This document shows positions 2,697-48,665 of a DNA stretch of 64,000 nt, piece after piece. The number at the start of each line of letters is the position of its first letter. Within the stretch, counting starts at the first letter, position 1. This DNA is from Bradyrhizobium prioriisuperbiae (GTDB taxonomy: Bacteria; Pseudomonadota; Alphaproteobacteria; Rhizobiales; Xanthobacteraceae): positions 4,390,501 to 4,454,500 of the forward strand of contig NZ_CP135921.1 in the NCBI RefSeq assembly GCF_032397745.1, read 5' to 3'. The notes beneath the pieces were generated by a model. That model was given only the letters and a program-made list of their open reading frames with translations, did no database searches and was not told the DNA's origin. A program made the position numbers and the translations under genes.

Positions 2697-2841
2697 GACG
2701 GTTCATCCATCGGCGGCGCGCAACTCGGTGTCCGGCAGATCTGAATCTACGTCTTCGATGTGACAAGCGATTTTACCTTGCTTGGGACATGAGCCTAGGA
2801 TGGATCGATCGTTGCGGGTTTCCTTGAATTGGGAGGCGTTC

Positions 2842-4080
2842 GTGATAAATCTGGCTCCGCTTGATTTACATTCCCGATCTGGCAGGAAACTGCTGGAGGG
2901 GACAGCAAGTGTTGCGTCGGCCGAGCTTGTCGCGCTAGCGCCTCGTCTGGCACGCACCTTTTCGTTGACGTCTCCGTTCGCGCCGGGCCTGCATTGCATT
3001 GGCGGCGAAATAGCGGTCGACGCCGGTCCGGCTTTCGGCGCGGTGAGACTGAGCGTCGCGGGAAATGGCGAGACCTTGGAGACTGCGTTTGTCTCGTGTC
3101 TGGGCGAAGCGGCGGATCTGCTTTCACAATTCGAGAGGCCAGGCGACATCAGGGCTGTGGAAGCCGGTGGCGGGCATACGAATTTTATGGCAGACGGTTG
3201 GATTGCCGCGGCCGCGGCACGCGCCACCAGGTCGATCGATTGGATCAATGCATCGGACGCATCGAGTGGAGAACCCGCGCTGCTTCCGGTCGATCTTTGC
3301 CTCAGGCGGCCACCGGCACGACGGGCGATCGAACCGGTCGGCGCGCTGTCGGCAGGCGCAGCCGCAGGGCCGAGTCTCGAGATCGCCGCTCTTCGCGCTG
3401 CTTTGGAGCTCTGCGAGCGTGATGCGGCCGCCATCTGGTGGCTGGGCGGCTGCCGTCCGAAGGGTTTCGCGCTGGAGCATCCGGCAACCAAAGTCGGGGC
3501 TGAACTGATCGCGCGATTGCGCCAGGGAGAGACTGCGCGGCGAACCATTCTGCTCGATATCACGGCAGATATTGGCGTTCCAGTTGTTGCGGCTGTGTCG
3601 ATGGATCATGACGGCCGAGGAATGGCGTACGGACTGTCGTCGAGATTGATCACGAGCGATGCAGTGAAGGCCGCGGTCCTTGAAATGTGCCAAATGGAAA
3701 TGGCAGCTCCGATTGCGCAGGCCAAGCATGCTGAGGGTGGTGACGCTGTGCTCAACGAGGCGGATCGCCGCCATCTCCGTCGCGCGGAGTTCGCGGCAGC
3801 GGACTGTGAGCTTCTTCATCCGCAGGAGATGTCGGCGCAGGGGGCGAGCGGGCCGTCCGCCGGGTTGGAACTCCGGGGACTGACGGACCATCTGCGCAAT
3901 CACGGTATTCGGCTCTTTCTGATTGACCACACGCGACAAGATATCGGCGTTCCTGTTGCAAGGGCCGTTTCGCCCGACCTGCAGCCGTTTTCAAGGGATG
4001 TTTCGACGATGCGGTTTACGCAGGCGCGCCGAGACCAGGATGGCGCAAGTCTCACGGAGCGCGAGAGGCTATTATTCTAG
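2842..4080 (+). CDS. YcaO domain protein, orphan
   Basis: YcaO enzymes use ATP to activate a peptide backbone amide, making azolines, thioamides or amidines in modified peptides; one modifies ribosomal protein S12. Family motifs are visible in order: SCLGEAADLL near residue 85, ALRAALELCERDAAAIWW at 184-200, LDITADIGVPVVAAVS at 238-253, EMCQMEM (E-x-x-Q-x-E) at 281-287 and DHTRQDIGVPVARAVSP at 362-378. No Pro-rich C-terminal PxPxP tail is present. The GTG at 2842 was chosen because GGGAGG lies five bases before it; TTG 2782 and ATG 2800 are alternatives. No E1-like partner, TfuA or obvious precursor peptide lies beside it. The next gene is a BTAD regulator 89 bases downstream. Confidence 0.82.
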   Translation: MINLAPLDLHSRSGRKLLEGTASVASAELVALAPRLARTFSLTSPFAPGLHCIGGEIAVDAGPAFGAVRLSVAGNGETLETAFVSCLGEAADLLSQFERPGDIRAVEAGGGHTNFMADGWIAAAAARATRSIDWINASDASSGEPALLPVDLCLRRPPARRAIEPVGALSAGAAAGPSLEIAALRAALELCERDAAAIWWLGGCRPKGFALEHPATKVGAELIARLRQGETARRTILLDITADIGVPVVAAVSMDHDGRGMAYGLSSRLITSDAVKAAVLEMCQMEMAAPIAQAKHAEGGDAVLNEADRRHLRRAEFAAADCELLHPQEMSAQGASGPSAGLELRGLTDHLRNHGIRLFLIDHTRQDIGVPVARAVSPDLQPFSRDVSTMRFTQARRDQDGASLTERERLLF

Positions 4081-4169
4081 CAGTTGAGTAATCTAGTAGT
4101 GAAAATATCGCTGGACGCCCAGTGGTTGTATCTCGTAGGTTTACGCAGATTTGACCATGGGGCGCGCAA

Positions 4170-6227
4170 TTGGACGGAGCGTCAGACGCCGCAAAGGATC
4201 GCATTCCTGAGGGGCCGGTGCGTGGGCAACTGATCCTCCATCTCCTCGGAGATTTCGCAGCCAAAATCGACGGTCGTGAGATATCGCTTGCAACCCGCAA
4301 GGCCAAGGCCCTGACGGCGTATCTCGCTCTTTCGGACAGCCCGCAGGACACACGCGAACGTCTTGTCGGACTGTTATGGAGCGAGAGCGACGAAGAGCGA
4401 GCACGGGCTTCGTTGCGGCAAGCCGTGCATGATATCAAGTTGGCCTTCGATGGTGCAGGATTTGCCGGATTCCGTGTCGACAAGCAGACCTTGTCGCTGG
4501 TCCGTGAACGGATCGTCTGTGATGTTGACGAGGTGGTCGCGGCGGCCGCGCAGGGCACGGTGCACTCGCGGCTGCTCGATACCCAACGCATTACCGACAG
4601 CCTGCTTTCAGGCCTCGACAATGTCGATCCGGCCTTCCAGGTCTGGCTGCTGGCCAAACGCCAACTGCTTCTCGATCGGTTGACACTTGCACTCGAACAC
4701 CTGCTGCCGGCCGACGGAGATTCCCGTGAGGCAAGTGCCGCAGCCTTGGCCCTGCTGAATCTCGATCCGACGCATGAAGTTGCCTGCCGGCACCTCATTC
4801 GCTCACGTGCGGCCCGGGGCGACCTCGGCGGAGCCCTGAAAATTTACAAATCGCTCTGGGATCTGCTGGAGACAGATTACGATATCGAACCCTCCCGCGA
4901 AACGCAGGCATTAATCGTTGGCATCAAGCAGACGCCCGGCTTGAGCGAGCACCCGCAAACCGTGCCAGTTGCACCAGGCTTGCATGGCGCATCACGCGAG
5001 GCGTTCGCACCGAGGCGATTATTCATATCTGTTTGCGCATTCGACGGGAGCGGTGTACCCGAAGACAAGCGTCACGTCGTCAATGGTTTTCGACATGAAT
5101 TTGTTGCCTGCCTCGCGCGCTTCCGCGAATGGTCGGTGCGAACACTGCCGCCACTCTGGGAATCGGAACCGAGAACGTGGTCCTCGCCGCCCGAGTATAT
5201 CGTTGAGGGCAGCGCCTACGAGTCGAGCGGCACGGTTCGGCTCGTTGTCACCCTTCGCGATGCCGCAACGTCGATATGTATCTGGAGCGAACGCTACTCC
5301 ATCACGCTGGCCGCGTGGTTCGAGACGCAGGAGCGCATCGTCCGCCAGATCGCGATGTCCCTGAATATCCATGTCTCTGCCGAGCGATTGCGTCGTCTTG
5401 CGACCGGTGGGGAGGTGACCCTCGAAATCCATGACCGATGGCTGCGCGGTCAGTCGCTGCTCCTGCAAATGACATCCGGACACTGGCCGGCCGGAGCCGC
5501 GCTGGTCGAGAGTCTGCTGGCCGATGCGCCTGATTTCTCTCCCGCTTTGAGTGGTCTGGTTCAGTTCCGCAACATCGCGCACATCGTGCTGCCCGGCCGA
5601 TTTCGGAATACCGCCGGGCATCTGGAGACATTGCGGATAGCGCAACGTTCCGTTCAGCTCGACCCGCTCGATTCACGCGCGCAACTCAGTCTCGCCTGGA
5701 CCTACCAATTGATCGGACAGCTGGACAAATCGACCCTGCATGCCGCGCTTGCGGTCGATCTCAACGACAACGATCCCTGGACCTTGATGGCGGCGGGGCA
5801 GATCTTCGCCTATTGCGGTGAGTACCAGCGCGCCGTGAGGCTGTCGGCCGCATCGCTTGGCAGCACGCCAATACCCATGCCGCCACAGGTCGCTTATTCC
5901 GGCGCAATCAGGTTTCTTTGCTCCGACTATACGAGATGCATTGACGCGTCCCCACGCGACCTCGGAGTGTCGCCTGCCTTCGCGATATGGGGCTGCGCGG
6001 CCAAGGCCCATGTCGGCCGGCTGGACGAGGCAAAAGCGGAATTCGAGAAGGCGCTGGAAGCGATCGCGGCCGACTGGCATGGCCAGCCGCCGCCGACACG
6101 CGAAAGCATGACCCGTTGGCTGCTGCACGTTTTTCCGATCGCGATCCCGGAAGATTGGGAGCGCCTCGCTGCGGGTCTCGGCGCAGCCGGCGCTCCGGTC
6201 ACCGGAATCGAGTTCGGGGTGTGGTGA
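4170..6227 (+). CDS. BTAD/SARP-type transcriptional regulator with TPR-like C-terminus
   Basis: This 685-residue cytoplasmic regulator begins with an OmpR-like winged helix (about residues 22-105, LLGDFAAKIDGREISLATRK onward). A bacterial transcriptional activation domain follows (about 110-255, helical, including LDNVDPAFQVWLLAKRQLLL). The middle part (about 285-400) resembles the alpha/beta module found in adenylate-cyclase-type HTH proteins (YIVEGSAYESSGTVRLVVTL). Helical TPR-like repeats extend to the C-terminus. The start is a TTG with GGGGCG upstream; I saw no better in-frame ATG. It follows the YcaO gene on the same strand and probably controls it or the convergent peroxidase genes. 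No ligand can be assigned. Confidence 0.85.
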   Translation: MDGASDAAKDRIPEGPVRGQLILHLLGDFAAKIDGREISLATRKAKALTAYLALSDSPQDTRERLVGLLWSESDEERARASLRQAVHDIKLAFDGAGFAGFRVDKQTLSLVRERIVCDVDEVVAAAAQGTVHSRLLDTQRITDSLLSGLDNVDPAFQVWLLAKRQLLLDRLTLALEHLLPADGDSREASAAALALLNLDPTHEVACRHLIRSRAARGDLGGALKIYKSLWDLLETDYDIEPSRETQALIVGIKQTPGLSEHPQTVPVAPGLHGASREAFAPRRLFISVCAFDGSGVPEDKRHVVNGFRHEFVACLARFREWSVRTLPPLWESEPRTWSSPPEYIVEGSAYESSGTVRLVVTLRDAATSICIWSERYSITLAAWFETQERIVRQIAMSLNIHVSAERLRRLATGGEVTLEIHDRWLRGQSLLLQMTSGHWPAGAALVESLLADAPDFSPALSGLVQFRNIAHIVLPGRFRNTAGHLETLRIAQRSVQLDPLDSRAQLSLAWTYQLIGQLDKSTLHAALAVDLNDNDPWTLMAAGQIFAYCGEYQRAVRLSAASLGSTPIPMPPQVAYSGAIRFLCSDYTRCIDASPRDLGVSPAFAIWGCAAKAHVGRLDEAKAEFEKALEAIAADWHGQPPPTRESMTRWLLHVFPIAIPEDWERLAAGLGAAGAPVTGIEFGVW

Positions 6228-6237
6228 AGGCCGCGCT

Positions 6238-6729
6238 TCAGGCGCATGTACTCAGCGTGTAATCACCGATGCGCTCGGCGTGAAGAGTCATTTTCTTCAC
6301 CTTGGTGTCCTGCTGCGCTGGGTCAATCGGCGCCCCAAATATGCGCTGGTAGAACGTCGGAAGTCGATACAGGGCGCCGGCAAGGATTCTGGCTTCGTGC
6401 GTCACCAGGATGTCCCGAGGCGGCAACCGGAGAACGAAGACGTCACCATCGCCCTGCGTCACCGCCAGACCCAGGCCTGCGTCACGGGGCACCGGCGTGT
6501 TCAGTCCGTCGTCGTAAATGAGGCCGACTCTCGCCTTCCTGCATTGTTCCCAAAATTCCACGAACGACGTTGGCCTGGGCCACTTGGGAGGTATTTCCTG
6601 CGTGGAGGGAACGGGGTCAGCTTCCGTCATTTCGTGGTCGACATAATTCATGCCGGTCGCCCAGCTTTTCACGAGTTTACCCCATGCGGGAAAATCGTTC
6701 TGGTTGATGGTGATCTTTTCACGTCCCAT
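6238..6729 (-). CDS. hypothetical protein next to haem peroxidase
   Basis: This 163-residue soluble protein is one I do not recognise. There is no signal peptide or membrane segment. It is acidic in the first half, has a Trp/Pro-rich stretch (EIPPKWPRPTSFVEFWEQC), and ends in TLSTCA. The ATG at 6729 is preceded by AGGTGG at good spacing. It lies 42 bases after the peroxidase stop on the same strand, so the two are probably co-transcribed. Its stop is only ten bases from the end of the convergent BTAD regulator. It could be a peroxidase accessory protein. The Cys near the C-terminus and the YcaO gene nearby make a modified-peptide role conceivable but unsupported. Confidence 0.7.
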   Translation of the reverse strand: MGREKITINQNDFPAWGKLVKSWATGMNYVDHEMTEADPVPSTQEIPPKWPRPTSFVEFWEQCRKARVGLIYDDGLNTPVPRDAGLGLAVTQGDGDVFVLRLPPRDILVTHEARILAGALYRLPTFYQRIFGAPIDPAQQDTKVKKMTLHAERIGDYTLSTCA

Positions 6730-6771
6730 ATTCCACCTCACTCTTGCTGCATGCGTGATGCTTGATACCGG

Positions 6772-8583
6772 CTACCCGCCGGTGGGGAATTCAATTCGAG
6801 CTCCGAGAAAGTCGATCAGCCGTTCTACCGTCGTGACGTTTTCGGCGCCGGAAAATGCGTCGGGCTTCCCGTCGAAAAGGATTTCCGATAGCCGTCGAAG
6901 TTGAGCTGCAAGGTCCCAGTTGCCGTCGATGTCGAGAAGGCGATCATGCTGGAAAATGCCGTAGAAGACATCAGCCACGACAATTGACGTCAGCACGCCA
7001 AGATGTTTCCCGGCGATGCCAGGGTCCAGTCCAGCTTCGAAGCGGGCGAAGAACGGGATCGGCGGATCCGTTGCCAGGATTCTGATATCGTTGTCGTCCA
7101 GGTGTTGCCCGGTTTCCGGTGCTGATCGACGCTCCGATAGCCAGCGGGAAATGTCCGCGTACCAGGGCGGAGCCTTCGGGGTGTCCAGAGGGCCCCTCAG
7201 AAAGGGCGACAGCTGGAGCAGTTTGCCGTGTGTTGGGCTCAGCCTTTCGGCCAGTGCGCGAACCGACCAAGGTTGCGTGGCAATTGAACTTGTCAGGTCG
7301 CGAAACGTCAATCCCGGTTCGTTTGTGTCTTGTCCCCGGGCAGCACCCTCGATGTCCAAACGGGACCACGGACCGATCGGCACGCTGAAGTTCGTTGTCG
7401 CCGGGTCGCTTCCGAAAAAACGCTGCCAATCGATCGTCCAGAATTCCTCAAACGGCATCAGACCGGCGTTCTTTTCCGAGGTGTGTTCAAGAATGAGGGG
7501 CAGACCGAGGCCGCGGTACTCCGAAATCTCTGTCCTTGGATTGAACGAATACACCGACCGGATCATCGCGTGACCAAAGCGAAAGAAGCCAAAAGAGAAT
7601 TCCAGCGGCACCAACCAGGTACCGGTGTCGAGTCCCTGTGGTGGGTCAAGGACTGTAATCCTCCCGGACTCGTATTCTGCAAAGACACCCGGGTGCAAAA
7701 TCTTGGACAAAATGTCGTTTCTGATAATGCTCCGGTAAATCAGTGCGCACGCAGACTGCCCAGCCACAAACTTCCTTTGCGCATTAACCAGGTGGCTCCC
7801 CGTCGGACAGATCTTTGGATTGTCGTCGAGACTTTCGAGTAATTGATTTTGAAGGTGGTGGAACATGACGACGATTTGCGAAAGAATCGCATGGGAGTCG
7901 TTGCGTCCGTCCGCGATCAGCGCCTCGGGATAGCTATTTTCGCCAAGTACTTCGGTCGCGCGTGCGCGCGCAATGTCTCTCAAGTCATCCGTATTGCCAG
8001 TATAGAACTTTCCGTCTTTTCGTACTTCCCCTAGTCGAAGGCGATTGCGAAAGCCGCTTTTGTCCTCGTTATAGGCAAACGGACATTGAATAGGGCCGCC
8101 GCCGAAGATTGTCTCAAGCCGCAGGGGCTTGCTGCGGACGTTGCTGAGGCCGAGCACGCTGCCTTCACTGCGTGACAAAAATAGCGAGCTCTCAACGAGG
8201 TCATGCGCGATCAATTGCAGAAAATACGTGTAGCCACTGGGAATCCAATCGTTGAATTGTTCACGTGCGCCAGGCTTAGGTTCGACCTCGATGATGCCGG
8301 CGAGTTTCTTCATCAGATTCTCGGCCTGTTGCCGCTGATCGGAACACTTCGGGTCGAAAGGCACTCCGTCGATCGCGAACCGCTGCGCCTCAGTGGGCTC
8401 GGGCTGCTGCGCGTCAGTGGGCTCGCACTGCTGCGCGGCAGTGGGGGGCTGAAGGGGGGACTGAAGGAAGTGCCTGAAACCGGGAATTGACCCCTCAGGC
8501 CCTGCATCGATCCGTGGCTCAAATGCTCTGGACTCGATCTCATCGCGCGCAGTCCAGAGAGAGATTGTCCCGTGTCCGCTCAT
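6772..8583 (-). CDS. animal-type haem peroxidase family protein
   Basis: This 603-residue protein has the landmarks of the peroxidase-cyclooxygenase superfamily. The distal His-Asp pair is in QLIAHDLVE (His127, Asp128). The catalytic Arg region is DGRNDSHAILSQ (Arg227), followed by MFHHLQN. The proximal His is in FRFGHAMIRSVY (His338). Such enzymes use hydrogen peroxide to oxidise halides, fatty acids or phenols, but the substrate here is unknown. There is no signal peptide, so it is either cytoplasmic or exported by a non-Sec route. The N-terminal 75 residues are poorly conserved and contain a Gln/Pro/Thr/Glu repeat. It leads a two-gene unit with the 163-residue unknown protein and is convergent with the YcaO-BTAD genes. 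Confidence 0.87.
   Translation of the reverse strand: MSGHGTISLWTARDEIESRAFEPRIDAGPEGSIPGFRHFLQSPLQPPTAAQQCEPTDAQQPEPTEAQRFAIDGVPFDPKCSDQRQQAENLMKKLAGIIEVEPKPGAREQFNDWIPSGYTYFLQLIAHDLVESSLFLSRSEGSVLGLSNVRSKPLRLETIFGGGPIQCPFAYNEDKSGFRNRLRLGEVRKDGKFYTGNTDDLRDIARARATEVLGENSYPEALIADGRNDSHAILSQIVVMFHHLQNQLLESLDDNPKICPTGSHLVNAQRKFVAGQSACALIYRSIIRNDILSKILHPGVFAEYESGRITVLDPPQGLDTGTWLVPLEFSFGFFRFGHAMIRSVYSFNPRTEISEYRGLGLPLILEHTSEKNAGLMPFEEFWTIDWQRFFGSDPATTNFSVPIGPWSRLDIEGAARGQDTNEPGLTFRDLTSSIATQPWSVRALAERLSPTHGKLLQLSPFLRGPLDTPKAPPWYADISRWLSERRSAPETGQHLDDNDIRILATDPPIPFFARFEAGLDPGIAGKHLGVLTSIVVADVFYGIFQHDRLLDIDGNWDLAAQLRRLSEILFDGKPDAFSGAENVTTVERLIDFLGARIEFPTGG
8390..8446. repeat. 24-bp tandem repeat inside the peroxidase gene
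   Basis: Two 24-base units (8390-8413 and 8414-8437) plus nine bases of a third encode an imperfect eight-residue repeat (EPT[DE]AQQ-type). It lies in the variable N-terminal part of the haem peroxidase. The unit keeps the reading frame. Confidence 0.7.
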
Positions 8584-8988
8584 CCGACCGTCCCCTTTGA
8601 CGGCGATTCCGCCATACCTGCCGTTAACCCAGCGTGAAATGACCTCCCCCTGATCGCCAGGAGGGTTCTCACGCTGCCCTCACACCGTCTGCCCAAACTC
8701 ACTCTCGCACGATGTTGCCGAAACTGAGAGCGAGCAGTGCGGTATTTTCATAACCAACAAATTTTGCGTCAAGGCATTGCCCGCCCTTCATACGCGGGCG
8801 GGGCTGGCGGCAGCATCGTGTACTGCCTCGCAAACCGGCAGGCTTTGTCCCGATTTGCCGTGCCACGCCGACCCAATCCGCGCATGGCGCCCGGTCGGAT
8901 CGTCGCACGGCCCCCCGATGCGCCACCGCTGAGGGCGGTTGCCCCCAATCCATCTCGCAATCTTAGCCGCTCAGCCCGGGACCACATA
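8584..8988. other. non-coding gap, divergent promoter region
   Basis: This stretch separates the peroxidase gene (leftward) from the seven-gene block (rightward). I found no convincing gene in it. It must hold the promoters of both units, but I could not single out -35/-10 boxes or an operator with confidence. Confidence 0.5.
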
Positions 8989-9372
8989 ATGGCCGACTTC
9001 TCCATCCGCATGAACAACATTCTCCGGTTTTCGAGTTGCGAGGTCCCGCATATTCCGACCAGCAAGCCGCATGAGGAAGTCCTCATTGTCGAGCTGCGCG
9101 GCGATCGTCTGACGATTACCCAGGATCGCGCGGATGGTGGTCTCGGAAGCCGCATCTACGCACGGCGAACGATCGACCTGCCGGAGGCTTCCATCTTCAC
9201 GATCCTCCCTGAACTGCCGTCCCACGTTCGGGACGGCTCTTTTTTCTCCGCTCTCGGCTCCGTCGCTATTCTTGCGGCGGGTTGCGGCGAGCAGCGCCGG
9301 TTGCGCGCTGTCGGCACCGACAGGAACAGCGGCCAGTGTCACGGATGGATCTTCGACGCAACGGAGGCGTGA
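8989..9372 (+). CDS. hypothetical protein, first gene of the seven-gene block
   Basis: This 127-residue protein is not recognised. It has no signal peptide or membrane span. The sequence alternates short beta-type stretches (EEVLIVELRGDRLTITQD) and has three cysteines, including one in LAAGCGEQRR. The ATG at 8989 (MADFSIRMNN) fits better than the upstream in-frame ATG at 8737, whose extra 84 residues are Arg/Pro-rich and look non-coding. It is on the same strand as the six genes that follow and lies 81 bases before the membrane protein gene. A small structural or adaptor protein is possible, but nothing in the sequence fixes a role. Confidence 0.62.
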   Translation: MADFSIRMNNILRFSSCEVPHIPTSKPHEEVLIVELRGDRLTITQDRADGGLGSRIYARRTIDLPEASIFTILPELPSHVRDGSFFSALGSVAILAAGCGEQRRLRAVGTDRNSGQCHGWIFDATEA

Positions 9373-9453
9373 GGCGATGCACGGGCCAAGGCCGCGCGCA
9401 TGTCGCTGGATAAAACCTGACGAACGGAAGTGTCCTTCCAGGGGAAGACCAAA

Positions 9454-10782
9454 ATGCAGAAGATCGTAGGCAGGAGGCTGAGGGCGATATCGGGGCTGTC
9501 ACCGGCAACCGCTGTCGCCCGGTCCATCGCACCGCTCTTATTTGGTGTGACAGCGGCGGTCTTCCTCTGCAGCTTAACCGTTCCGACCGGTGCACAATCG
9601 CCAGCTCCCGCGGCATCGTCCGGGTCTTGCGAACCCGCAGCGGCTGCGGTGGGACGGGTCTATCGCATCTCCCGCGGTGCTGCGGCGCCGGCGAGTCCAG
9701 ACGAGCCGGGCGTGACGGATGTCGAGCTGGGCGACGAAATCGCGATCGAGGTGACGAATTACCCCAAGCTCAAGCCCTGCGCCACTCTTGCAAAGAGGCT
9801 CGTTCTGTTTATCGACGGCCGGCCCGCCGGACCCCTGAAACTGCCGCCGCAGATCGATCCGGCCGGGAACAACGTCAAGTTCGTTGCGAAGCTGGTCGTC
9901 GAGTTGCGCGAAGGGTCGCGCGAAACCCTCGCCGCCATTGTGGAGAGAGCCCGAGCGGAGCCAGCAGGCTTGCTCGTGAGCATCGGACCGGATGAACAGC
10001 CGGCTATTCGCTCCGAGGCAAAACTCAAGCTGAATCCGCTGCCTACCCGCTGGGGAATCACGTGGCTGATCGTATTCCTGGTTCTGCTCGCGGCTTTCGT
10101 CGTCTGCGCATTGCGCACCAACATCATTCGTGATGGCCAACCCGAGCCGGGCGCGCTGGATTGGCGCGGGGCCTACAGCCTGTCCCGCGCGCAGGCGGCC
10201 TGGTGGTTCTTCGTCGTGCTCGCCGCCTATCTGTTCATCGGGCTGGTCACGGGGGACTTCAACAATTCGTTCAACAGTACCGCTCTCACGCTGCTCGCGA
10301 TCGGTGCCGGTACGGCGCTCGGCTCCGCCGCGATCAATGTTGCCAAGACATCCGACAAGGCAACGCTGGAAGCGCAAACTGCACGCGAGGCGGCAACGCA
10401 GGACGTGGCCATGCTTGCGGGGCGGGAAGCCGCCCTCAGGCAGGAAGTCGCTGTCGAAGCGAACGGCGAGCGCAAGGTCGAGATCGTCAAACAGGTCGCC
10501 GCGGTCCAGGCGCGGCTGAGCGCGCGGGAATCCGATCGCGCCAAACTGCTCAATCAATCGGAAAATTTCTTCCGCGACATCGTAAGCGACGCCAATGGAG
10601 TGAGCTTCCATCGCTTCCAGGTGGTCGCATGGACGGTCGTGCTGACGGTCGTCTTCGCGAAGGACGTGATGTCCGGCCTCGCAATGCCGGACTTCAACAC
10701 AACGCTGCTTGGCCTGCAGGGTTTGAGCGCGGCGACGTTCCTTGGGTTGAAGACGACGGAGGCGACCGTTCCAAAAAATTGA
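9454..10782 (+). CDS. multi-pass membrane protein of unknown family
   Basis: This 442-residue protein starts at the ATG preceded by AGGGGAAG. Residues 25-47 form a signal or anchor segment ending near TGAQ. A beta-rich extracytoplasmic region (about 60-195) follows, containing the likely disulphide residues Cys59 and Cys109. Membrane spans are seen at about 201-220, 248-266 and 277-296. A charged coiled-coil-like stretch (about 300-370, many Ala/Glu/Arg) separates these from further spans at about 388-405 and 415-432. The segments SLSRAQAAWWFFVVLAAYLF and FHRFQVVAWTVVLTVVF look like a recurring membrane module, but I cannot name the family. It may anchor the peptidoglycan-active proteins encoded downstream. 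Confidence 0.8.
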   Translation: MQKIVGRRLRAISGLSPATAVARSIAPLLFGVTAAVFLCSLTVPTGAQSPAPAASSGSCEPAAAAVGRVYRISRGAAAPASPDEPGVTDVELGDEIAIEVTNYPKLKPCATLAKRLVLFIDGRPAGPLKLPPQIDPAGNNVKFVAKLVVELREGSRETLAAIVERARAEPAGLLVSIGPDEQPAIRSEAKLKLNPLPTRWGITWLIVFLVLLAAFVVCALRTNIIRDGQPEPGALDWRGAYSLSRAQAAWWFFVVLAAYLFIGLVTGDFNNSFNSTALTLLAIGAGTALGSAAINVAKTSDKATLEAQTAREAATQDVAMLAGREAALRQEVAVEANGERKVEIVKQVAAVQARLSARESDRAKLLNQSENFFRDIVSDANGVSFHRFQVVAWTVVLTVVFAKDVMSGLAMPDFNTTLLGLQGLSAATFLGLKTTEATVPKN

Positions 10783-10847
10783 TCGGGCCTGCCGTCGGCA
10801 GGCCGCGCGATGCCCACTCCGAACACATCAAACCGGTGGAGAACACC

Positions 10848-12698
10848 ATGCATAACGGACGTATCTTGCTACCCATCGCCGAAGCGCATGAAGGCGAGCC
10901 ATATGTGCTTGGGGCGCGTGTGCCTATGGATAATGCAACGTTCCACGGGCCGTGGGACTGTGCCGAATTCGTGTCCTGGTGCGTCTATCAGGCCTACGGT
11001 GTGCTGTTCGGCGTGAGGCCGGACAATCCGCAGACCGCAGACGCCTATACCGGGTACTGGACCGAGGACGCGCTGTCGTCGCATGCGACCATTGCTGTCA
11101 GCCAGGCGCTGAATACGCCGGGGGCCATTCTGCTGCGCCGGCCGCGTTCTCAAGGCAGTGGTCATGCGATCGGGCACATCGCGATATCGCGAGGGGACGG
11201 CAGCACGGTCGAGGCGCGGGGGGCGAGGTTCGGCGTGGTGATCGCTACCGGCGCCGCATCGCGACCTTGGGACTATGGCGTGCTGGTTCCCGGCATCGAA
11301 TATACAGCCGGCGCTGGGCAGCCCTATGTCCCGCAAGCGGGACAGCTGATGGTCACGTCGCCGCTGACGCGGGGGCCGACGGTCATCGCCGTGCAGCGTG
11401 CGCTCCAGCAGCGTGGCTACGAACCAGGTCGGATCGACGGCGTCTTCGGTGTGACAACCGAAGCGGCGGTTTACAATCTGCAAGCCGCGGAAGGGGTGGC
11501 GACGGACGGCGTCGTGGGTCCGGAAACCGCCGGTCTTCTCGGCTTGGGGTGGCCGATTGCAGTCAGCGAAGGCGATACGGACGCTTTTGCCGCGGTCGAG
11601 GCACGCGAGCAAACACGCATCGATGCGCTCAGCCTTCGTCTGCTGACGCCAGGACAGGATGGCGAGGCGCGCCCGGGTAATGCCGGGGCGCCCCAGGGCG
11701 ATGTCGGTGATGCTGAAATGGCGGCTCGAGCCGATGCGCTGCTGCCTGGTCCAGGTGCGGATGAGATCACCGGATTCGAGCGCACCGAGCCGAGGCCCGG
11801 CCGGTTCGTTCATTTCGCGAAACTTGCAAATGACAGCCGCATCTATCTCGGCTCGGAGACGCGTTACACCGACGACATGGCGCGGCGCGGACTGTATCAG
11901 CCGTCCAACCGGCTGAACGAGATTGCGGACGCCGGCCGTTACGACCGCAATACAGCCATGGGCATCCACGGCCGGCTGGCCCAGATCATCTGGCCGACCG
12001 TCATGGGAGAGAGCGACGGCTATTTCGCCCGCCTGAACTCCTACGATCGCGCCGCTTTCACCTTCGGCTGTTACCAGGCGGCGGCGCATACGCCGAACGA
12101 AAATCTGATCGTGCTATTCCGCATGCTGCTGGCGTTGCCGTCTGCGGCCCGCTTCTTCCCCGATCTGACTCTGGTGGAGGACGGTGAACAGGTTCCGCGC
12201 GTGCATCGCAGGCTTCCTGATGGATCGGTCCGGTCGCTCGAAACGTCGCGCAGGGTGACGCGCCCGAACGGTGTCGTCGAGACGCAGATCGCTGACTTCA
12301 TGCAGTACCTCAATGCCGATCCGACACGCGTCGACGATGCGGAGAGGACCACCACCGCCAGGCTGTTGCTCTGGTGCCGCCAGGAGGAGGCGCGCAATGT
12401 GCAGGTGCGCCACGCCATAGCGACGGCACGACGCAAGATCAGCGACACTATGCGACGCGTCGGGGCTTTCACCGGCAACGACTGGCGCGAGGTCATCTGG
12501 GTCAACGATATCCGCCATCAGGGGCGCGCCGGATTCCAGAGGATCGCGCAGGCCTTCGAAGGCGGCAACGCGCTCGAACGGCTGGCCGCCATCGGCGCGA
12601 GCAACTATCCGGATCGGATCAAGACCGTACGCGACTGCATTCGCACGTTGGAGAGCGAGGACATCTTGCGCGGCTGGTCCGCGGCCGATCTGCAATAG
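10848..12698 (+). CDS. NlpC/P60-like peptidase with peptidoglycan-binding domain and unknown C-terminal domain
   Basis: This 616-residue protein begins at an ATG with GGAG eight bases before it. The N-terminal domain (about 1-150) has a Cys-His peptidase signature: Cys38 in GPWDCAEFVSWC, and His106/His110 in GSGHAIGHIAIS. A PG_binding_1 domain follows (about 170-235; RALQQRGYEPGRIDGVFGVTT, then TDGVVGPETAGLLGL). Residues about 300-616 form a domain I do not recognise; GESDGYFARLNSYDRAAFTF has the look of a glycan-binding or lysozyme-like region. There is no signal peptide, although peptidoglycan should be the substrate. Export would need a phage-like or other special route, or the target may be foreign cell wall. 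Confidence 0.83.
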   Translation: MHNGRILLPIAEAHEGEPYVLGARVPMDNATFHGPWDCAEFVSWCVYQAYGVLFGVRPDNPQTADAYTGYWTEDALSSHATIAVSQALNTPGAILLRRPRSQGSGHAIGHIAISRGDGSTVEARGARFGVVIATGAASRPWDYGVLVPGIEYTAGAGQPYVPQAGQLMVTSPLTRGPTVIAVQRALQQRGYEPGRIDGVFGVTTEAAVYNLQAAEGVATDGVVGPETAGLLGLGWPIAVSEGDTDAFAAVEAREQTRIDALSLRLLTPGQDGEARPGNAGAPQGDVGDAEMAARADALLPGPGADEITGFERTEPRPGRFVHFAKLANDSRIYLGSETRYTDDMARRGLYQPSNRLNEIADAGRYDRNTAMGIHGRLAQIIWPTVMGESDGYFARLNSYDRAAFTFGCYQAAAHTPNENLIVLFRMLLALPSAARFFPDLTLVEDGEQVPRVHRRLPDGSVRSLETSRRVTRPNGVVETQIADFMQYLNADPTRVDDAERTTTARLLLWCRQEEARNVQVRHAIATARRKISDTMRRVGAFTGNDWREVIWVNDIRHQGRAGFQRIAQAFEGGNALERLAAIGASNYPDRIKTVRDCIRTLESEDILRGWSAADLQ

Positions 12699-12809
12699 GG
12701 CCGGAACGATGCGACGCGGGAGCAGGGAAACAGCGGCGGCGTCTCAAGGAAAAATTCGGAATAGCCAGCCGTCGCGGTGCTGACAACCCATTCACGACAG
12801 GAGAGTGTC

Positions 12810-14408
12810 ATGATTGCCAATTACGTTGAAATACCCGGAAGTCATCGCGAACCACCCAAAGGTCTGCCGGCGATCGCCTCGGCCCACGCTTCAACGCCCG
12901 GGGAGCCGATCGAAATCAGCGTCTATCTGAAAGATCGCAGCGCCGACGATCTTCTGCAGCAGGGACCTCTTTCTGCGTCAGCGGCCGCAGCAAAGAATGC
13001 GCCGGCATACGACGTTGCTGGCCAGCGGGCAGCGGAATACGCCAACGATTTCGCGAAAATCGCAGACTTTGCGAATGAAACGGGGTTGGCGATCGTCAGG
13101 CAGGATCCAGCGCGCCGGCTGGTCAAACTCTCCGGTCCGATCGACAAGATCGAAGCCGCCTTCAGGACCAAGCTGCACTACTACAATGACGGTCAGCAGG
13201 GGTTTCGCGCGCGTTCAGGCACCCTCTCGGCGCCGGCTGATGTGGTCGACAGCGTGGAGGCCGTTTTGGGCCTCGACACGAGACCGATTGCAAAGGCGAA
13301 GCTCACCCATCACCTGGACCCGCATGCCGTCGTGGGACATCTCCCCAACGAGGTGGCGAAACTCTACGGATTTCCGAACACGACCGGCAACGGAGCCGGC
13401 CAGTGCATCGCTCTGATCGAACTCGGCGGTGGCTTCCGGGACAGCGACAACCAAGCGGCGTTCAGGGCCATGAATCTGAATACGCCGAGGGTCATGCCGA
13501 TCTCGGTGTCGGGAGGACAAAACCAGCCCGGCAGGGATCCCAACGCGGATAGTGAGGTCGCGCTGGATATCCAGGTCGCGGGCGGAGCGGCTCCGGGAGC
13601 CAGCATCGCGGTGTATTTCGCCCCCAACACCGTCCAGGGCTTCGTCGATGCCATCACCAGGGCGGTCCACGATCAGCAAAATCGTCCGTCGATCATCTCG
13701 ATCAGCTGGGGATCGGCGGAACTGAACTGGAGCGGCCAGGGCCTCGCCGCGATGAACACGGCGTTCAAGGACGCTGCGTCGTTGAATATAACGGTGCTTG
13801 CGGCGGCAGGCGACAATCTTGCGACCGATGGTATCGGCGACGGCCGCGCGCATACCGATTTTCCGGCGTCGAGCCCGTTTGTCATCGGCTGCGGTGGCAC
13901 TGTGATCGATACCAGTGACGGCGTCATCACCAGCGAGAAGGTCTGGAATCGCAACGGCGGCGGAACCGGCGGCGGCATCAGCGATGTATTCGCGATGCCC
14001 GCTTATCAGGCCAATGCGAACATCCCGGAGTCGGTCAACGATCGAAAAGTCAGGCGAGGCGTGCCGGATATTGCCGGCGATGCCGACCCCCGCAGCGGCT
14101 TTTCCGTCGTCGTCGGCGGCATTGGCGGAACGATTGGCGGAACCAGCGCGGTGGCGCCATTGTTCGCGGGATTTTTTGCGCTGATCAACGAGGCGTGCAG
14201 CAAGCCCGCCGGATTTGCCCTCCCGCTGTTGTATGGCAGTACGGCAGCGTTCCGTTCGGTTGTCAGCGGCGACAACAAGGTTGGCAATATCGGCTACACC
14301 GCCGGCCCGGGCTGGAATGCCTGCACTGGTCTCGGCGTGCCTGATGGTTCGAGACTCTTTGCCGTCTTCAAGCAGGCGTCCGCTGATCCAGCTTCGGCGG
14401 TTGCTTGA
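12810..14408 (+). CDS. S53 family peptidase (sedolisin/kumamolisin type)
   Basis: This 532-residue acid-type serine-carboxyl peptidase has an N-terminal pro-domain (about 10-165, ending near VLGLDTRPIAKAKL) and a subtilisin-like catalytic domain. The Glu-Asp pair is in DSEVALDIQVAGG (Glu249, Asp253), the oxyanion Asp in AAAGDNLATDG (Asp335), and the nucleophile in GGTSAVAP (Ser446). The C-terminal WNACTGLGVPDG fits the calcium-binding end of the family. The start at 12810 has AGGAG upstream; the earlier ATG at 12777 lacks this. No classical signal peptide is seen. Its place between peptidoglycan-active proteins suggests it processes or degrades proteins for the same purpose. Confidence 0.92.
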   Translation: MIANYVEIPGSHREPPKGLPAIASAHASTPGEPIEISVYLKDRSADDLLQQGPLSASAAAAKNAPAYDVAGQRAAEYANDFAKIADFANETGLAIVRQDPARRLVKLSGPIDKIEAAFRTKLHYYNDGQQGFRARSGTLSAPADVVDSVEAVLGLDTRPIAKAKLTHHLDPHAVVGHLPNEVAKLYGFPNTTGNGAGQCIALIELGGGFRDSDNQAAFRAMNLNTPRVMPISVSGGQNQPGRDPNADSEVALDIQVAGGAAPGASIAVYFAPNTVQGFVDAITRAVHDQQNRPSIISISWGSAELNWSGQGLAAMNTAFKDAASLNITVLAAAGDNLATDGIGDGRAHTDFPASSPFVIGCGGTVIDTSDGVITSEKVWNRNGGGTGGGISDVFAMPAYQANANIPESVNDRKVRRGVPDIAGDADPRSGFSVVVGGIGGTIGGTSAVAPLFAGFFALINEACSKPAGFALPLLYGSTAAFRSVVSGDNKVGNIGYTAGPGWNACTGLGVPDGSRLFAVFKQASADPASAVA

Positions 14409-14583
14409 GCGTTGGCGCTTGCGTTGGGCATCGGTTTTGCCGGTCGCGATCTGGGGTGGCTTTGTGAAAGTAGGGCCACGCAAGGCTCCCCAGGATCGCG
14501 CCGCCAGCGCCGCCTAAACGTCAACCCGGCGACCGCACGGCGGCGCCGTTCAGTTCTGGGATCTGGAAAATCGGGGGGATACC

Positions 14584-15333
14584 GTGCGGCGATCAATCAT
14601 CCTTTTTCTGCTGGCTGTGCTCGTTTCGGGGTGCCGCTTCGGCGATAGCGGGCGTGGCGTATCGGCCAAGCCAAGCGAGGTCCATGCGTTTGCCGGCGTT
14701 TGTTCCGCGCCCGTGCCGGACCTTACCCCGACCGGCTACACGATTGCGGGATTCGATTTCGTCGACGAACAGTGCGGGGTCTTCTTCGATGGCATAGTCG
14801 AACTGGCAAAGAATTCGCGGTACGCGTCGAGTTCGATCGCAACCGCAAATACCCAGGCGGCCCTGATCATGGCCGCCGTCGACGCCGCGACCAAATCGAT
14901 CGCGATCGTCGCGGCGAGCAGTGAACTCGCGCGCAAGCTGATCGACGGCTACGCCGCGGAATATGCCTTCTCGCCCTATGCGCTGGAGGTCCGTCAGCTC
15001 GTCGTCGATGCGCTGAGTGCTTATCGCGCCGACAGCAAGACCGACGAAGCTGTGCGAACGCTGCAAGCGTTGCCGCCCGGGGACGCATTTTGCCTCGCGA
15101 ACAATATTGTCCGCAACTACGCCAAGATCTGCACGATCGCGAACGTCGAAGCGCTGGCCCGACAGGCTGTCGCGAACTCGAAGATCGGCAAATCGGATTC
15201 CCCGGCGGCTAACCCGCAGCGCACATTTTCCCCAGCAGCGGCGAGCAGGGCCCTGCCTCGGGCAACGGCCGAGCAACTCACAAGCTTCCGCCGCGGGCTG
15301 GCCTTGCCGAACTATACCGCCGGCAAACCTTGA
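14584..15333 (+). CDS. predicted lipoprotein of unknown function
   Basis: This 249-residue protein carries a short basic N-terminus, a hydrophobic stretch and a clear lipobox, VLVSGC, with the lipid-bearing Cys at residue 17. The start is GTG with a purine run (GGGGGGA) directly upstream. The mature part is mostly helical and Ala-rich, with four more cysteines (for example FAGVCSAP, DEQCGVFF, GDAFCLAN, YAKICTIA) that could form two disulphides in the periplasm. No known domain is recognised. It is the only member of the block with a standard lipoprotein signal. Its stop is 12 bases from the next start, so it is probably co-translated with the following gene. Confidence 0.8.
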   Translation: MRRSIILFLLAVLVSGCRFGDSGRGVSAKPSEVHAFAGVCSAPVPDLTPTGYTIAGFDFVDEQCGVFFDGIVELAKNSRYASSSIATANTQAALIMAAVDAATKSIAIVAASSELARKLIDGYAAEYAFSPYALEVRQLVVDALSAYRADSKTDEAVRTLQALPPGDAFCLANNIVRNYAKICTIANVEALARQAVANSKIGKSDSPAANPQRTFSPAAASRALPRATAEQLTSFRRGLALPNYTAGKP

Positions 15334-15345
15334 GTGGAGGCAGAC

Positions 15346-16611
15346 ATGAACGATCATTCGATATTCGCATTCCGATCCGGCGACGGCGTGATCGCGCCCG
15401 ATAAACTCGAACTGACCGATGCCGAGTTGCAGCGGGCGAGAGTGCAGGAGCAATCGGCGGACGACCCGGCGCCGGAACCTGAAACGCTGATGCAGCGGGC
15501 TTCCCGGTTCATCGCAACCTTCAGTGCCGCAACGCCGCTGAAGGCGAAGTGGCCGGAGCAGGATGCGCATGCCCCGGATTACCGCCATTTGAGCGCCAGC
15601 ACGATCGGCGCGGCGACAACCTTCATGTTGACGCCCGATGTCGTCGAACTGCTGATCGGCGCCAATCGGTTCGACCCCCACGGCATGAATGATGTCATCG
15701 CCCTCGCTTTTCGCGGGTTGGCGCTGGGCAAGGCGACGGAAATCGGATCCAGGCACGAAGTGGAGAACGCCACCTCGATCGAGGTTACCGACGTTCGGCC
15801 CAATCACAGCGACTATCGCTGCCTCCTGGGTTTCTACAAGCGCGACGCGGATCCGACGAAACGCCGTCTGACCTTGTTCTCGGGTTCGACGGTTCCGAAC
15901 CCGTACTACATGCGCGGCTATTACAACAAGGTGAACTTCGGCGTGTCGTTCAGTACCGCATGCAACATGGTCCCGACCGGTGGTTACGTATTCCGGGTGG
16001 CAGCGCACAAGCATGGCACTATCAAGCCCGCGCTGCGCATGACCGATCCCGACGACCTGGCGCAGGACGCGACGTGCACGGTACTGCGAACGACCAACGA
16101 CCTCATCTTCGGAGTCGACGATACTTGGGACACCAGCATGCCTTACGACAACGTGCACTGCACCTATGTCACGAGCGTGAAAGCCGAATGGGAAGCATCG
16201 TTTTCGTCGGCCGGCTGCCTGACTGTCCGTGGCAAACAGCTCACGAGCGACCAATGGGCCAAGTTTCAGGCCGTGCTGAACCAGCTCGGATCGGGCAAAC
16301 GCTGTGATCTTGTGCTGTTGACGGGCCGCGACGCGGGCATCGCGGCTGCGATGCTTCTCAATGGGCAGTCGGGCGACGACGTCGCGCTGCGTCGTGAACT
16401 CATCCGGTTGCGGCCGGGCTCGCAAAGCGCCGAGGTTGCTCGTCTGCGCGAGAAGCTCGGCCTCTCCGCCGGAAACTATTTCGGTCCGGTCACGAAAAAG
16501 AAGCTCACCGAGCGGCAGACCCAGCAAGGCCAGCCCGCTGACGGCATCTTCACGCCTGAGCTCGATACCTTGTGGGGCTGGAACGTGTTCGGAGCACCGC
16601 CAGGCGTATGA
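15346..16611 (+). CDS. protein with peptidoglycan-binding-like C-terminus and SAGC motif
   Basis: This 421-residue protein starts at an ATG with GGAGG six bases upstream. The first 90 residues are Ala/Glu-rich and probably linker-like. The middle (about 90-330) contains NPYYMRGYYNKVNFG, a His in DNVHCTYV and a Cys in FSSAGCLTVRG. The order His then SAGC recalls L,D-transpeptidase-like or related cell-wall enzymes, but I cannot assign a family. The last 65 residues (VARLREKLGLSAGNYFGPVT and on) look like a divergent peptidoglycan-binding fold. There is no signal peptide. It sits between the lipoprotein and a glycosidase-like gene in the seven-gene block. Confidence 0.78.
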   Translation: MNDHSIFAFRSGDGVIAPDKLELTDAELQRARVQEQSADDPAPEPETLMQRASRFIATFSAATPLKAKWPEQDAHAPDYRHLSASTIGAATTFMLTPDVVELLIGANRFDPHGMNDVIALAFRGLALGKATEIGSRHEVENATSIEVTDVRPNHSDYRCLLGFYKRDADPTKRRLTLFSGSTVPNPYYMRGYYNKVNFGVSFSTACNMVPTGGYVFRVAAHKHGTIKPALRMTDPDDLAQDATCTVLRTTNDLIFGVDDTWDTSMPYDNVHCTYVTSVKAEWEASFSSAGCLTVRGKQLTSDQWAKFQAVLNQLGSGKRCDLVLLTGRDAGIAAAMLLNGQSGDDVALRRELIRLRPGSQSAEVARLREKLGLSAGNYFGPVTKKKLTERQTQQGQPADGIFTPELDTLWGWNVFGAPPGV

Positions 16612-16705
16612 TCGATATCGCCGCTGGAGGAGTAGACGTTCAATGCCCGCGACCCAAACACCTCGCTGCGGAAAAACCAACATTTGAAAACCGAGAACAA
16701 TTGTC

Positions 16706-17536
16706 ATGCCAGTCTTCAAGACAGGATTGAAGCCACCTTTCAGTGGACACGGATTTTACGTCTACGACCTCGAAACTTTGCTGAACGCCTATGGCAGCAC
16801 GGCCGCGCTGATCGGCGAATTGCACCGCCTGAAGGTCGATCATCTGTGGTTGCGCATCCACGGCCGCAACTACGTCGGCAGCCATCAGCACACCAATCTG
16901 AATCGCGAGACCGCTTTCGCGGATGATGCCCGTGCGGCTGGATTTGCGATCGCCGGCTGGGGCTGGTGCCAGGGCGAAGACATCCCGGCGGAAACCGCTC
17001 TCGCGTTGGGGGCGATCAATACCTATGGTGTCGATCATTACATCGCCGACATCGAGCAGGGAGAGAACGGCGCTCATTGGACCGCGCAGGAGATTCAGCA
17101 GTTTCTCGGCGGCATCCGCGGTCATGTCGCCGGACTGGGCTTTACCAGTTTCGGCTTCATCGACGGGCATGCACCTCAGCTGCTTCAGGCGGCCGCGGCT
17201 TTTGTCGACATGATCAATCCGCAAGCCTATTGGTTCAAGAACTTCCCGAAAGCCTCGATGCTGAATCAGACGGGAACCGTCGGAGAATATCCGCTTGCCA
17301 ACTCGGCCGGATATGCCGGATTCTGCTGCGACCGATATCAGCACTGGGCTGCCAAACCCGTGGTGATTTCCGGCCAGGCCTATACCGCCGACGGATTCGA
17401 CAGCGCGGACGCGGTCGCGAAGCTCAGTCAATTCTTCAATGACTTCGGCCGCTATGGCGATATTTGCGGCTTCAACTGGTGGCACCTGGGTGACGCGAAC
17501 AAGGCCATGCGCGATGTTATTGCGGCCCACATGTGA
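16706..17536 (+). CDS. TIM-barrel glycoside-hydrolase-like protein
   Basis: This 276-residue protein looks like a (beta/alpha)8 barrel. Strand ends carry HLWLRIHG, FAIAGWGWCQG, DHYIADIEQG, FTSFGFIDG, MINPQAYW, VVISGQAY and CGFNWWHLGD. The acidic pair in YIADIEQG fits a GH25-like or DUF1906-like (Rv2525c-type) glycosidase active site. No signal peptide is present. It closes the seven-gene block and could cut or bind peptidoglycan glycan strands, complementing the peptidase-like gene upstream. Catalysis is not certain, because many members of such families are annotated only as glycoside-hydrolase-like. Confidence 0.75.
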   Translation: MPVFKTGLKPPFSGHGFYVYDLETLLNAYGSTAALIGELHRLKVDHLWLRIHGRNYVGSHQHTNLNRETAFADDARAAGFAIAGWGWCQGEDIPAETALALGAINTYGVDHYIADIEQGENGAHWTAQEIQQFLGGIRGHVAGLGFTSFGFIDGHAPQLLQAAAAFVDMINPQAYWFKNFPKASMLNQTGTVGEYPLANSAGYAGFCCDRYQHWAAKPVVISGQAYTADGFDSADAVAKLSQFFNDFGRYGDICGFNWWHLGDANKAMRDVIAAHM

Positions 17537-25735: not shown

Positions 25736-26137
25736 TCAGTTGCAGACCTCGACCGGCCGCCGGCGCCAGCCATGTTTCGTGTGCACCCGCTGATGCACCA
25801 CATAACAGCTGCCGGTGTCGGCGTCGGAATCGTCGTAAAACGAGTTGCCGGCATACGGATATCCGTAGTCATAGTCGTCATAGCCGTATGGTCCATAAAG
25901 GCCATAACCAAAGCCGCCGAACGCCAACCCACGGCCAAAGCCGTGATGATGGAATCCGTGGAAGCCTCCACCATGGAATCCGCCACCGTGGAAACCGCCT
26001 CCGCCGTGGAAGCCACCACCCCCGAAGCCGCCGCCATGGCCACCGCCGTCGCCGCGTGCGGATGCCATCGTCGGGGCAACCAGTCCGACAGATGCAACCG
26101 TCAGGAGCGCGATCATCGTTTTGCGCAACATTGTCAT
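25736..26137 (-). CDS. secreted glycine/histidine-rich protein
   Basis: This 133-residue protein starts MTMLRKTMIALLTVASVGLV and has a signal peptide cleaved near TMASA. A region with GGG/GFHGG repeats (about 28-65) is followed by Tyr/Asp-rich YGPYGYDDYDYGYPYAG and a C-terminal block with two cysteines (GSCYVVHQRVHTKHGWRRRP, then EVCN). Such proteins are common in Bradyrhizobiaceae. The many histidines suggest metal binding, but this is inference. The chosen start is internal to a longer reading frame. Confidence 0.75.
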   Translation of the reverse strand: MTMLRKTMIALLTVASVGLVAPTMASARGDGGGHGGGFGGGGFHGGGGFHGGGFHGGGFHGFHHHGFGRGLAFGGFGYGLYGPYGYDDYDYGYPYAGNSFYDDSDADTGSCYVVHQRVHTKHGWRRRPVEVCN

Positions 26138-26580
26138 TCTCCGTAATCCATCGCTCGATTGCTCCCAACCGTCATCAATGTCGCTATGAACGTAGGACGC
26201 GTTCGAAGAAGCGCCACGGTGCGCGGCACCTGTGCCGCTCAACTCTGCGCGACCGCCAGCGCTAAATTCCAGTTTACAATCCAGCGATCGCCGCAGCTGC
26301 AATAGAACTCGAGACAGATGCAATAAGACGACCCACATTGGTGCCGAACCACTGCATGGGAGAAACTGCCATCGAGCGAGTGATGCCGGAGGGATCAGAT
26401 CAGGCGCGGCGGCTGCAGGCTTCGCCGATCGGGCCCACCTCTCCCGCGGCTTCCGCAGCAGCCTCGGCGTAACGGCCGGGCATTCACGCGCGTGCTCGTG
26501 GGCTCGCATGCGGAGCCGGAAATTCGGCTCCCTAAGATCAGGTGCGTTTGTGATCGCCTTGGAAAGACCACTGGGGCCGC
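26138..26580. other. gap holding a decayed AraC fragment
   Basis: No intact gene is seen here. The left end must hold the promoter of the Gly/His-rich gene. The centre encodes the broken AraC-type segment listed separately. Confidence 0.5.
26390..26500 (+). pseudogene. remnant of an AraC-type helix-turn-helix
   Basis: In the plus-strand frame starting at 26232 the translation includes AGFADRAHLSRGFRSSLGVT. This matches the conserved second helix-turn-helix of AraC proteins (GFxDxxHLxRxFRxxxGxTP). The remainder of a regulator is missing on both sides, and the neighbouring translation is not recognisable. I read it as a relic of a gene lost by deletion. Confidence 0.6.
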
Positions 26581-48635: not shown

Positions 48636-48665
48636 GCTTCGACAGGGCTTTATCCGAAGACAAAA

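Follow-up and report, generated by a model that had tools for sequence, protein, structure and literature searches.

Introduction

To our knowledge, the protease-activated death effectors known so far from bacteria are mainly pore formers and nucleases. In alphaproteobacteria, conflict systems of trypsin and S8 peptidases with lysozyme-like and papain-like effectors that attack peptidoglycan have been published (eLife 2020, 9:e52696; PMC7159879). Among them, System 3 combines NucA with trypsin, S8 and EAD1-linked wall effectors, occurs mostly in this class and was proposed to act through a proteolytic cascade. Proteolytically activated pro-nucleases are described from nuclease-protease pairs and canu loci (Science 2025; PMC12799240), and in Caulobacter the CARD-NLR-like LypABC controls lysis, its downstream lytic effector being stated as unknown (Nat Microbiol 2026; PMC13236601). 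We compare with them a block of up to seven genes, p1 to p7 (positions 8989-17536), in a stretch of 64,000 nucleotides from Bradyrhizobium prioriisuperbiae (contig NZ_CP135921.1), hereafter the window. An earlier note on this DNA had described seven co-directional genes for peptidoglycan-active proteins and proposed an undescribed envelope-attacking system with a membrane protein as base and a sedolisin as activating protease. Its observation is partly confirmed by our analysis and its interpretation partly supported.

The window resembles System 3 in joining several peptidase families to peptidoglycan-attacking domains, and the alphaproteobacterial setting and the idea of a proteolytic cascade are shared ground. 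However, it contains a sedolisin and lacks NucA, trypsin and a recognised EAD: neither a NucA-type nuclease nor a trypsin-like peptidase occurs among the ten window proteins scanned for families (seven of the block and three upstream, eight of the ten also against PHROGs), and no block protein matched EAD1 in Pfam, whose coverage of these divergent domains is unconfirmed. The L,D-transpeptidase-like domain of the window goes unmentioned for System 3 in the available excerpt of PMC7159879. The word undescribed is only partly apt, as related trypsin/S8 wall-effector systems are already in print. With the nuclease-protease pairs and canu loci (PMC12799240, as excerpted) the family of p6 shares a latent enzyme beside a protease of varying family, as well as TPR and caspase partners; there the effector is a nuclease whose cleavage was shown, whereas here it would be wall-active and presumably cleaved. 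LypABC is likewise an alphaproteobacterial protease/NLR lysis system, but the excerpt of PMC13236601 describes no wall enzyme and the window has no NLR.

What is new here is chiefly the unannotated L,D-transpeptidase-like domain with its range of protease partners, and less the seven-gene block as such. No pairing of such a domain with proteases was found among the matches listed from the open-licence PMC literature. The reading that we favour, as a serious possibility rather than a probable one, is that the block is a horizontally acquired sedolisin variant of alphaproteobacterial conflict modules made of proteases and wall enzymes, and that it would act by protease-gated lysis.

The p6 domain and its protease partners

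The gene p6 (15334..16611, + strand) encodes a leaderless protein with a predicted L,D-transpeptidase-like domain (residues ~98-342) followed by PG_binding_1 (355-417), which agrees with the earlier description of a PG-binding-type protein with a His/SAGC signature. The signature is H275-X16-SAGC (codons at 16156..16218, + strand), with a spacing of 16 in 22 of 31 aligned rows, 9 in 8 and 11 in 1. Compared with the L,D-transpeptidase motif H-X14-17-[S/T]HGC (PMC9638812, excerpt), spacing, Ser, Gly and Cys agree, and the His of HGC is Ala in p6, so that the motif is missed. No L,D-transpeptidase model of Pfam or NCBIfam matched p6. Plain Foldseek found nothing under E 0.001 for p6 or for p3, and the fold statements for both come from a VIA second look, which is blind to folds missed by Foldseek. 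Judged from the sequence, the catalytic residues of p3, p4 and p6 appear intact.

The core of p6 is patchily distributed. At E 1e-15 or better it was found in 3 of 198 genomes of the family and 5 of 385 of the class (both including its own), in 3 of 79 relatives of genome G200 and in 10 of 74 relatives of genome G233; these sets overlap, and two fragmentary matches in G868 were dropped beforehand. A search with whole p6 matched 59 of 297 genomes; with PG-binding-only matches set aside, the core occurs at seven places besides the window. The own genome holds two copies of the domain, the second at ~3.62 Mb (L056, 8563-12535) with an S8 subtilase ~600 nt downstream. Some relatives (L094, L096, L098) bear Tat-like leaders by eye, which suggests that some members of the family act outside the cytoplasm, where a wall enzyme would be expected to.

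A protease of family S8, S53, C14, S1 or C11 is fused to the p6-domain protein or lies within 8 kb of it in 14 of 24 loci (23 others plus the window), against one of 27 control loci, which surround p2 and p3 homologues and are not random positions; the naive Fisher p of 1.7e-5 ignores kinship, 11 of the 24 loci coming from one family, several contigs are short, and the five protease hidden Markov models (HMMs) were seeded from the p6-domain loci themselves. From the controls, L008 and L023 had been removed for short flanks, and the p6-type genes of L057, L093 and L097, which the gene caller missed or cut, were added by HMM match. The single control with a protease is L010, with an S8-like protein by our own S8 HMM. 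Among 102 neighbours at 13 p6-domain loci, curated Pfam models identified four S8 and three C14 proteins, and both families are absent from the best 25 of 210 families among 133 control neighbours at 17 loci, where small families do not figure; 20 of 153 control genes had been dropped before that count (18 short or doubtful, two over the size limit). Since curated Pfam agrees with the HMM count, the direction of the linkage is the same without the seed bias.

The five protease families belong to three clans, with S8 and S53 in one, C14 and C11 in another and S1 in the third. In L056, L059 and L097 an S8 protease lies near a protein composed of a lysozyme-like part, the p6 core and a PG-binding domain, and in L057 a protein of the same composition is followed by an S8+trypsin protein, a caspase and an S8 protease; in PADLOC, the neighbours in L057 fit the caspase, subtilase and 'nacht' models. 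The lysozyme-like reading of these N-termini follows from the source name of a homologue, together with matches to Phage_lysozyme in L130 and L093; in the proteins of L056 and L057 Pfam found nothing. Clostripain (C11) is fused or adjacent to proteins with p6 core, PG-binding domain and GH19 in L058, L124 and L126, and adjacent in L125, whose large protein was outside the domain scan. Sensor-like parts occur in several loci: L130 (5626-15293) encodes a TIR-nSTAND1-TPR protein that ends in the p6 core (A2 profile), its neighbour combines p6 core, Phage_lysozyme, TPR-S and trypsin, and TPR-S-trypsin proteins stand beside p6-core proteins in L131 and L133. L132 has a trypsin and a WD40 protein, and L098 a caspase. 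Besides, a small protein with two transmembrane (TM) segments is common to L058 (10647-11282), L124 (5645-6178, without a Pfam family) and L125 (11655-12353).

In a tree of 40 p6-core sequences (FastTree, midpoint root, groups read from topology alone), the S8 loci, the S1 loci together with L057, and the C11 loci form three separate groups, and the C14 loci are scattered. The window clusters with proteins known from sequence search alone. Its nearest relatives of known context are the C11 loci L126, L124 and L058, with the protease-free L127 only slightly more distant. Given this placement, the protease link appears to belong to the family and extends to the window by analogy, with the adjacent sedolisin in addition. 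The recurrent protease pairing, with TIR, nSTAND1 and TPR-S sensors in several cases, makes it reasonable to read the block as an envelope-attacking cassette in which a protease is the activator; given the proteases and immune-sensor genes beside p6 relatives, it may serve for self-lysis or as a weapon.

An alternative begins from Tlde1a, an effector of the type VI secretion system (T6SS) with an altered L,D-transpeptidase fold (PMC9638812, excerpt). Like Tlde1a, p6 would put such a fold, here a predicted one, to antibacterial use; it differs by its PG-binding domain, by SAGC for SHGC and by the lack of an adjacent T6SS gene. The leaderless wall enzymes could then be antibacterial cargo of the T6SS of this genome, with p5 as periplasmic immunity lipoprotein and the sedolisin incidental or cargo as well. 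Such a T6SS is indeed encoded at ~6.45-6.48 Mb (VipB by Pfam; Hcp, VgrG and others complete-looking by eye), and a lipoprotein-like gene directly precedes the p6-domain gene here, in L062 and in L093, the latter two being mutually related and without detectable kinship to p5. However, the T6SS lies ~2 Mb away and neither Hcp, VgrG, PAAR nor a T6SS structural gene was found among the scanned block proteins. Of the 11 other p6-domain genomes in which VipB was sought, only two have it, and among the remaining nine one is 84% complete (seven p6-domain genomes among the G233 relatives were outside this test, and VipB also occurs in a twelfth genome, G326, which carries a homologue of p3 only). Moreover, giant STAND and clostripain fusions would make poor T6SS cargo. 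We therefore regard this explanation as unlikely.

The sedolisin p4 and the wall enzyme p3

The gene p4 (12777..14408, + strand) encodes, as had been read from the sequence, a sedolisin (S53, kumamolisin-like) with a prodomain and without a leader. It aligns to pro-kumamolisin (PDB 1t1e) over residues 40-531, that is prodomain and enzyme, with E 1.4e-122, and is the sole Pro-kuma_activ match in the genome. The catalytic set Glu260, Asp264, Asp346 and Ser457 supplies Glu, Asp, Ser and the oxyanion Asp. All of this is shared with kumamolisin, from which p4 differs by its genomic partnership with wall enzymes. Relatives of p4 were absent from a first scan of genome contigs and present in 58 plasmid records; the one neighbourhood examined, from Polymorphobacter, is free of annotated wall genes.

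Sedolisins work at low pH, and in archaea S53 genes correlate with acidophily (PMC6411800, excerpt). This would fit a secreted digestive exoenzyme cassette, in which an acid protease and wall hydrolases leave the cell by non-classical export and degrade dead or prey bacteria in acid soil; the recognised block enzymes all act on cell material. Furthermore, the stretch before the prodomain is about as long in p4 as in kumamolisin (the alignment starts at residue 40 versus 35), so the absent leader may be ordinary for sedolisins. Still, no export gene was recognised in the block, the Tat-like leaders of some p6-domain relatives are missing in the window form, and other relatives are fused to intracellular sensors. 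A digestive role thus seems improbable to us.

The gene p3 (10848..12698, + strand) encodes a leaderless protein with an NlpC/P60 domain (residues 1-151) of papain-like NlpC fold with Cys and His, and a PG_binding_1 domain (163-233). Both had been recognised before, and a third, C-terminal domain (~303-610), probably lysozyme-like in the fold comparison, had been missed. In PHROGs, p3 matched endolysins that carry PG-binding domains, a single 'head and packaging' model and, weakly, a minor tail protein (E 5e-5). Homologues at E 1e-20 occur in 12 of 297 genomes, the own included, and further relatives in 12 plasmid records. Six plasmid neighbourhoods, which were left out of the control count above, include a C1 peptidase adjoining the S. 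fredii copy and an S8 peptidase ~4.5 kb from the R. leguminosarum copy. The homologues P0195 of p3 (89% identity) and P0004 of p6 (87%) each lie on a contig of 113,904 bases, which we take to be one contig; a near relative thus seems to keep p3 and p6 together. On an Azotobacter plasmid (L102, 6422-7894), a homologue of the C-terminal domain of p3 lies near Qat anti-phage genes and a patatin.

Proposed mechanism and its weighing

Four enzyme-like proteins had been noted to lack signal peptides. We can agree with this: in a simple hydropathy scan, p3, p4, p6 and p7 show no Sec-like hydrophobic N-terminus, while p2 and p5 have one. The following proposal starts from what was computed, namely domain content, catalytic residues, the lack of hydrophobic leaders and the repeated association of the p6 domain with proteases. 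The endopeptidase and lysozyme-like protein p3, the L,D-transpeptidase-like and wall-anchoring p6 and perhaps p7 would be co-transcribed with their protease and stored in the cell as wall-cutting proteins, kept from the wall in a healthy cell as they lack export signals. The zymogen p4 would stand in for the subtilisin, trypsin, clostripain or caspase of the related loci; as sedolisins share the subtilisin fold, one of them could readily replace an S8 protease. The trigger for p4 might be membrane damage, infection or acidification; once active, the protease would cleave p3 or p6 and so release or unmask the wall enzymes, leading to lysis of the cell or, once they are released, of its neighbours. 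Before the trigger, the lipoprotein p5 may shield the periplasm; this role, like any for p2 and p7, is conjectural. From the enzyme family we infer that a sedolisin would make the switch acid-sensitive. Storage with release by a protease is the simplest account that we can offer for leaderless enzymes, a zymogen protease and the family linkage taken together. It has published forerunners in the protease-gated nucleases (PMC12799240), in the attack on peptidoglycan proposed for alphaproteobacterial systems rich in proteases (PMC7159879) and in the part that LypABC plays in lysis (PMC13236601).

Several points weigh against this account, beginning with the choice of controls, the seeding of the HMMs and the kinship of the loci mentioned above. 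The sedolisin occurs in none of the 23 other p6-domain loci. By family scans the block contains neither trypsin, NucA, STAND or TIR nor a recognised adaptor. No protease was found in 10 of the 24 loci (L060, L061, L062, L093-L096, L127-L129), and among these L127-L129 form a group next to the C11 loci in the tree; within p6's own clade, the window is the only locus of known context and the only case of a protease link. The nine control loci around p3 homologues contain none of the five proteases. Elsewhere p2 lives apart from the other genes, and p7 is nearly without relatives.

A wider speculation, to which we give rather little credence, is that proteins with L,D-transpeptidase-like and PG-binding domains might form a class of wall-lytic effectors under proteolytic gating, as a wall-cutting equivalent of the gasdermins and pro-nucleases of bacteria. 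Its clades would have their own protease partners (S8, S1, C11), and the branch of the window would be sedolisin-gated, with acidification of the cytoplasm as death trigger. If true, such effectors could be of the kind noted as missing for Caulobacter LypABC, and we offer them as candidates for lytic effectors downstream of CARD-NLR-like systems in general. Wall-active enzymes beside or fused to five protease families, some with STAND, TIR or TPR-S sensors, would allow Gram-negative lysis on command. At the least, a function is hereby suggested for a conserved domain that Pfam and NCBIfam models miss in p6.

The membrane protein p2 and the remaining genes

The gene p2 (9430..10782, + strand) encodes the multi-pass membrane protein of the earlier description, with a leader-like N-terminus, a part that is probably extracytoplasmic, and about four TM-like segments. 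It was found in its own genome only among 60 relatives, in 2 of 297 genomes of the order including its own, and on 19 named contigs. No relative of p3, p4 or p6 lies near p2 homologues in 20 other loci (19 and one more), in first-pass gene calls that missed some genes and within flanks of 4 to 21 kb, several of which end at contig ends (L008, L012, L013 and L023 are among those with little flank). In addition, no genome searched except its own holds p2 together with the p6 domain. We consequently reject p2 as base of a conserved system. The neighbourhood comparison upholds a co-occurrence of p6-domain proteins with proteases, and neither p2 nor the sedolisin co-occurs with the p6 domain elsewhere. 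In four Rhizobiales loci (L005, L007, L009, L015), the p2-family gene lies directly downstream of gyrB. In a Bacteroidetes bin (L018, 9698-11875), the gene next to it is amidase-like by eye, a mild hint of a wall link for p2.

The separate life of p2 bears on a further explanation, according to which unrelated acquired genes merely came to lie side by side in an island, with no joint function. The 58 plasmid records of p4, with the Polymorphobacter neighbourhood described above, and the low third-position GC across 2782-17536 would fit such an assembly as well, and none of the genomes searched repeats the block in full, its parts being patchily distributed. On the other hand, the genes run in the same direction with short gaps throughout, at least two of them are wall-directed, p3 and p6 homologues (87-89% identity) are taken to share the contig mentioned above, and the p6 domain is linked to proteases. 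A chance neighbourhood is accordingly doubtful in our view.

The gene p5 (14584..15333, + strand) encodes a predicted lipoprotein, in line with the earlier note; its LPAM_1 match falls just under the cut-off. A distant relative on a Skermanella plasmid (23.6% over 203 residues) directly precedes an NlpC/P60 protein, whose C-terminal half is SLT-like by eye, and lies near an NlpC-PG-binding protein. For p7 (16706..17536, + strand; 276 aa, no leader), the former label of a TIM-barrel glycosidase-like protein was not confirmed: scans gave no recognised family, there is no convincing PDB relative, and against the Rv2525c-like glycoside hydrolases (PF08924) there was no Pfam match and an hhalign probability of 0.1, obtained with a single-sequence query. 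One weak relative was detected among 296 other genomes of the order.

The 127-aa open reading frame (ORF) p1 (8989..9372, + strand) found no family in library scans, its best match among related loci was weak (0.0046), and a terminator-like stem-loop lies inside it (9216..9237, + strand; a stem of 8 bp, then TCTTTTTT), found by consensus match, with four such sites overall against a mean of 7.3 in shuffles, that is below chance. As it has no family, no convincing homologue and an internal hairpin, p1 may not be a gene. Of the seven co-directional genes, six therefore stand.

Genomic context

The genome is a single contig of 9.08 Mb. The six well-supported ORFs p2-p7 (9430-17536) all lie on the + strand, separated by 65 nt (p2-p3), 78 or 111 nt (p3-p4), 175 nt (p4-p5), 0 or 12 nt (p5-p6) and 94 nt (p6-p7), the alternatives reflecting different start codons. 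Relatives make the gene status of p2 (172 proteins), p3 (193) and p6 (73) certain; these lists include, or possibly include, the window's own entry. Third-position GC is 0.64-0.71 for the called genes across 2782-17536 and 0.74-0.87 in the nearest flanking genes, a count that excludes two spurious minus-strand ORFs and does not include p2, p5 and p6, which are shadowed by overlapping ORFs. Because these values lie below those of the flanks, 2782-17536 (no strand) is probably a horizontally acquired island; however, a few other genes of the window (25736-27177, 32200-32784) are equally low.

A prophage or phage lysis cassette, from which the block had been set apart before, was rejected here as well. 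No phage gene was seen around the block, viral contigs hold no relative of p2, p3 or p7 and match p6 through its PG-binding part only, and 50,697 phage records contain no relative of p6 (p2, p3, p6 and p7 were searched). Neither p6, p2 nor p7 matched among plasmids. The seven block and three upstream proteins yielded no named holin or T6SS protein, and PADLOC defence models left the block proteins unmatched, giving only Cmr6 (0.045) for an upstream 167-aa ORF. The absence of phage and type VI genes alongside thus stands, the weak tail match of p3 aside, while the genome does encode a T6SS elsewhere.

Upstream of the block, region 2782-8583 encodes a YcaO protein (2782-4080), a BTAD regulator (4170-6227), the 167-aa ORF and a 603-aa protein that is haem peroxidase-like by eye and has no Pfam match. 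These genes share the low third-position GC of the block and may form a part of the same island, either related to ribosomally synthesized and post-translationally modified peptides or of another kind. Farther downstream, a Peptidase_M23 protein (40676-42478, - strand) is another possibly wall-directed enzyme of the window, and the genes that come after a TPR + caspase (Peptidase_C14) protein (45171-46904, + strand) encode three OMP_b-brl proteins (46950-51885) and a DUF2167 protein.

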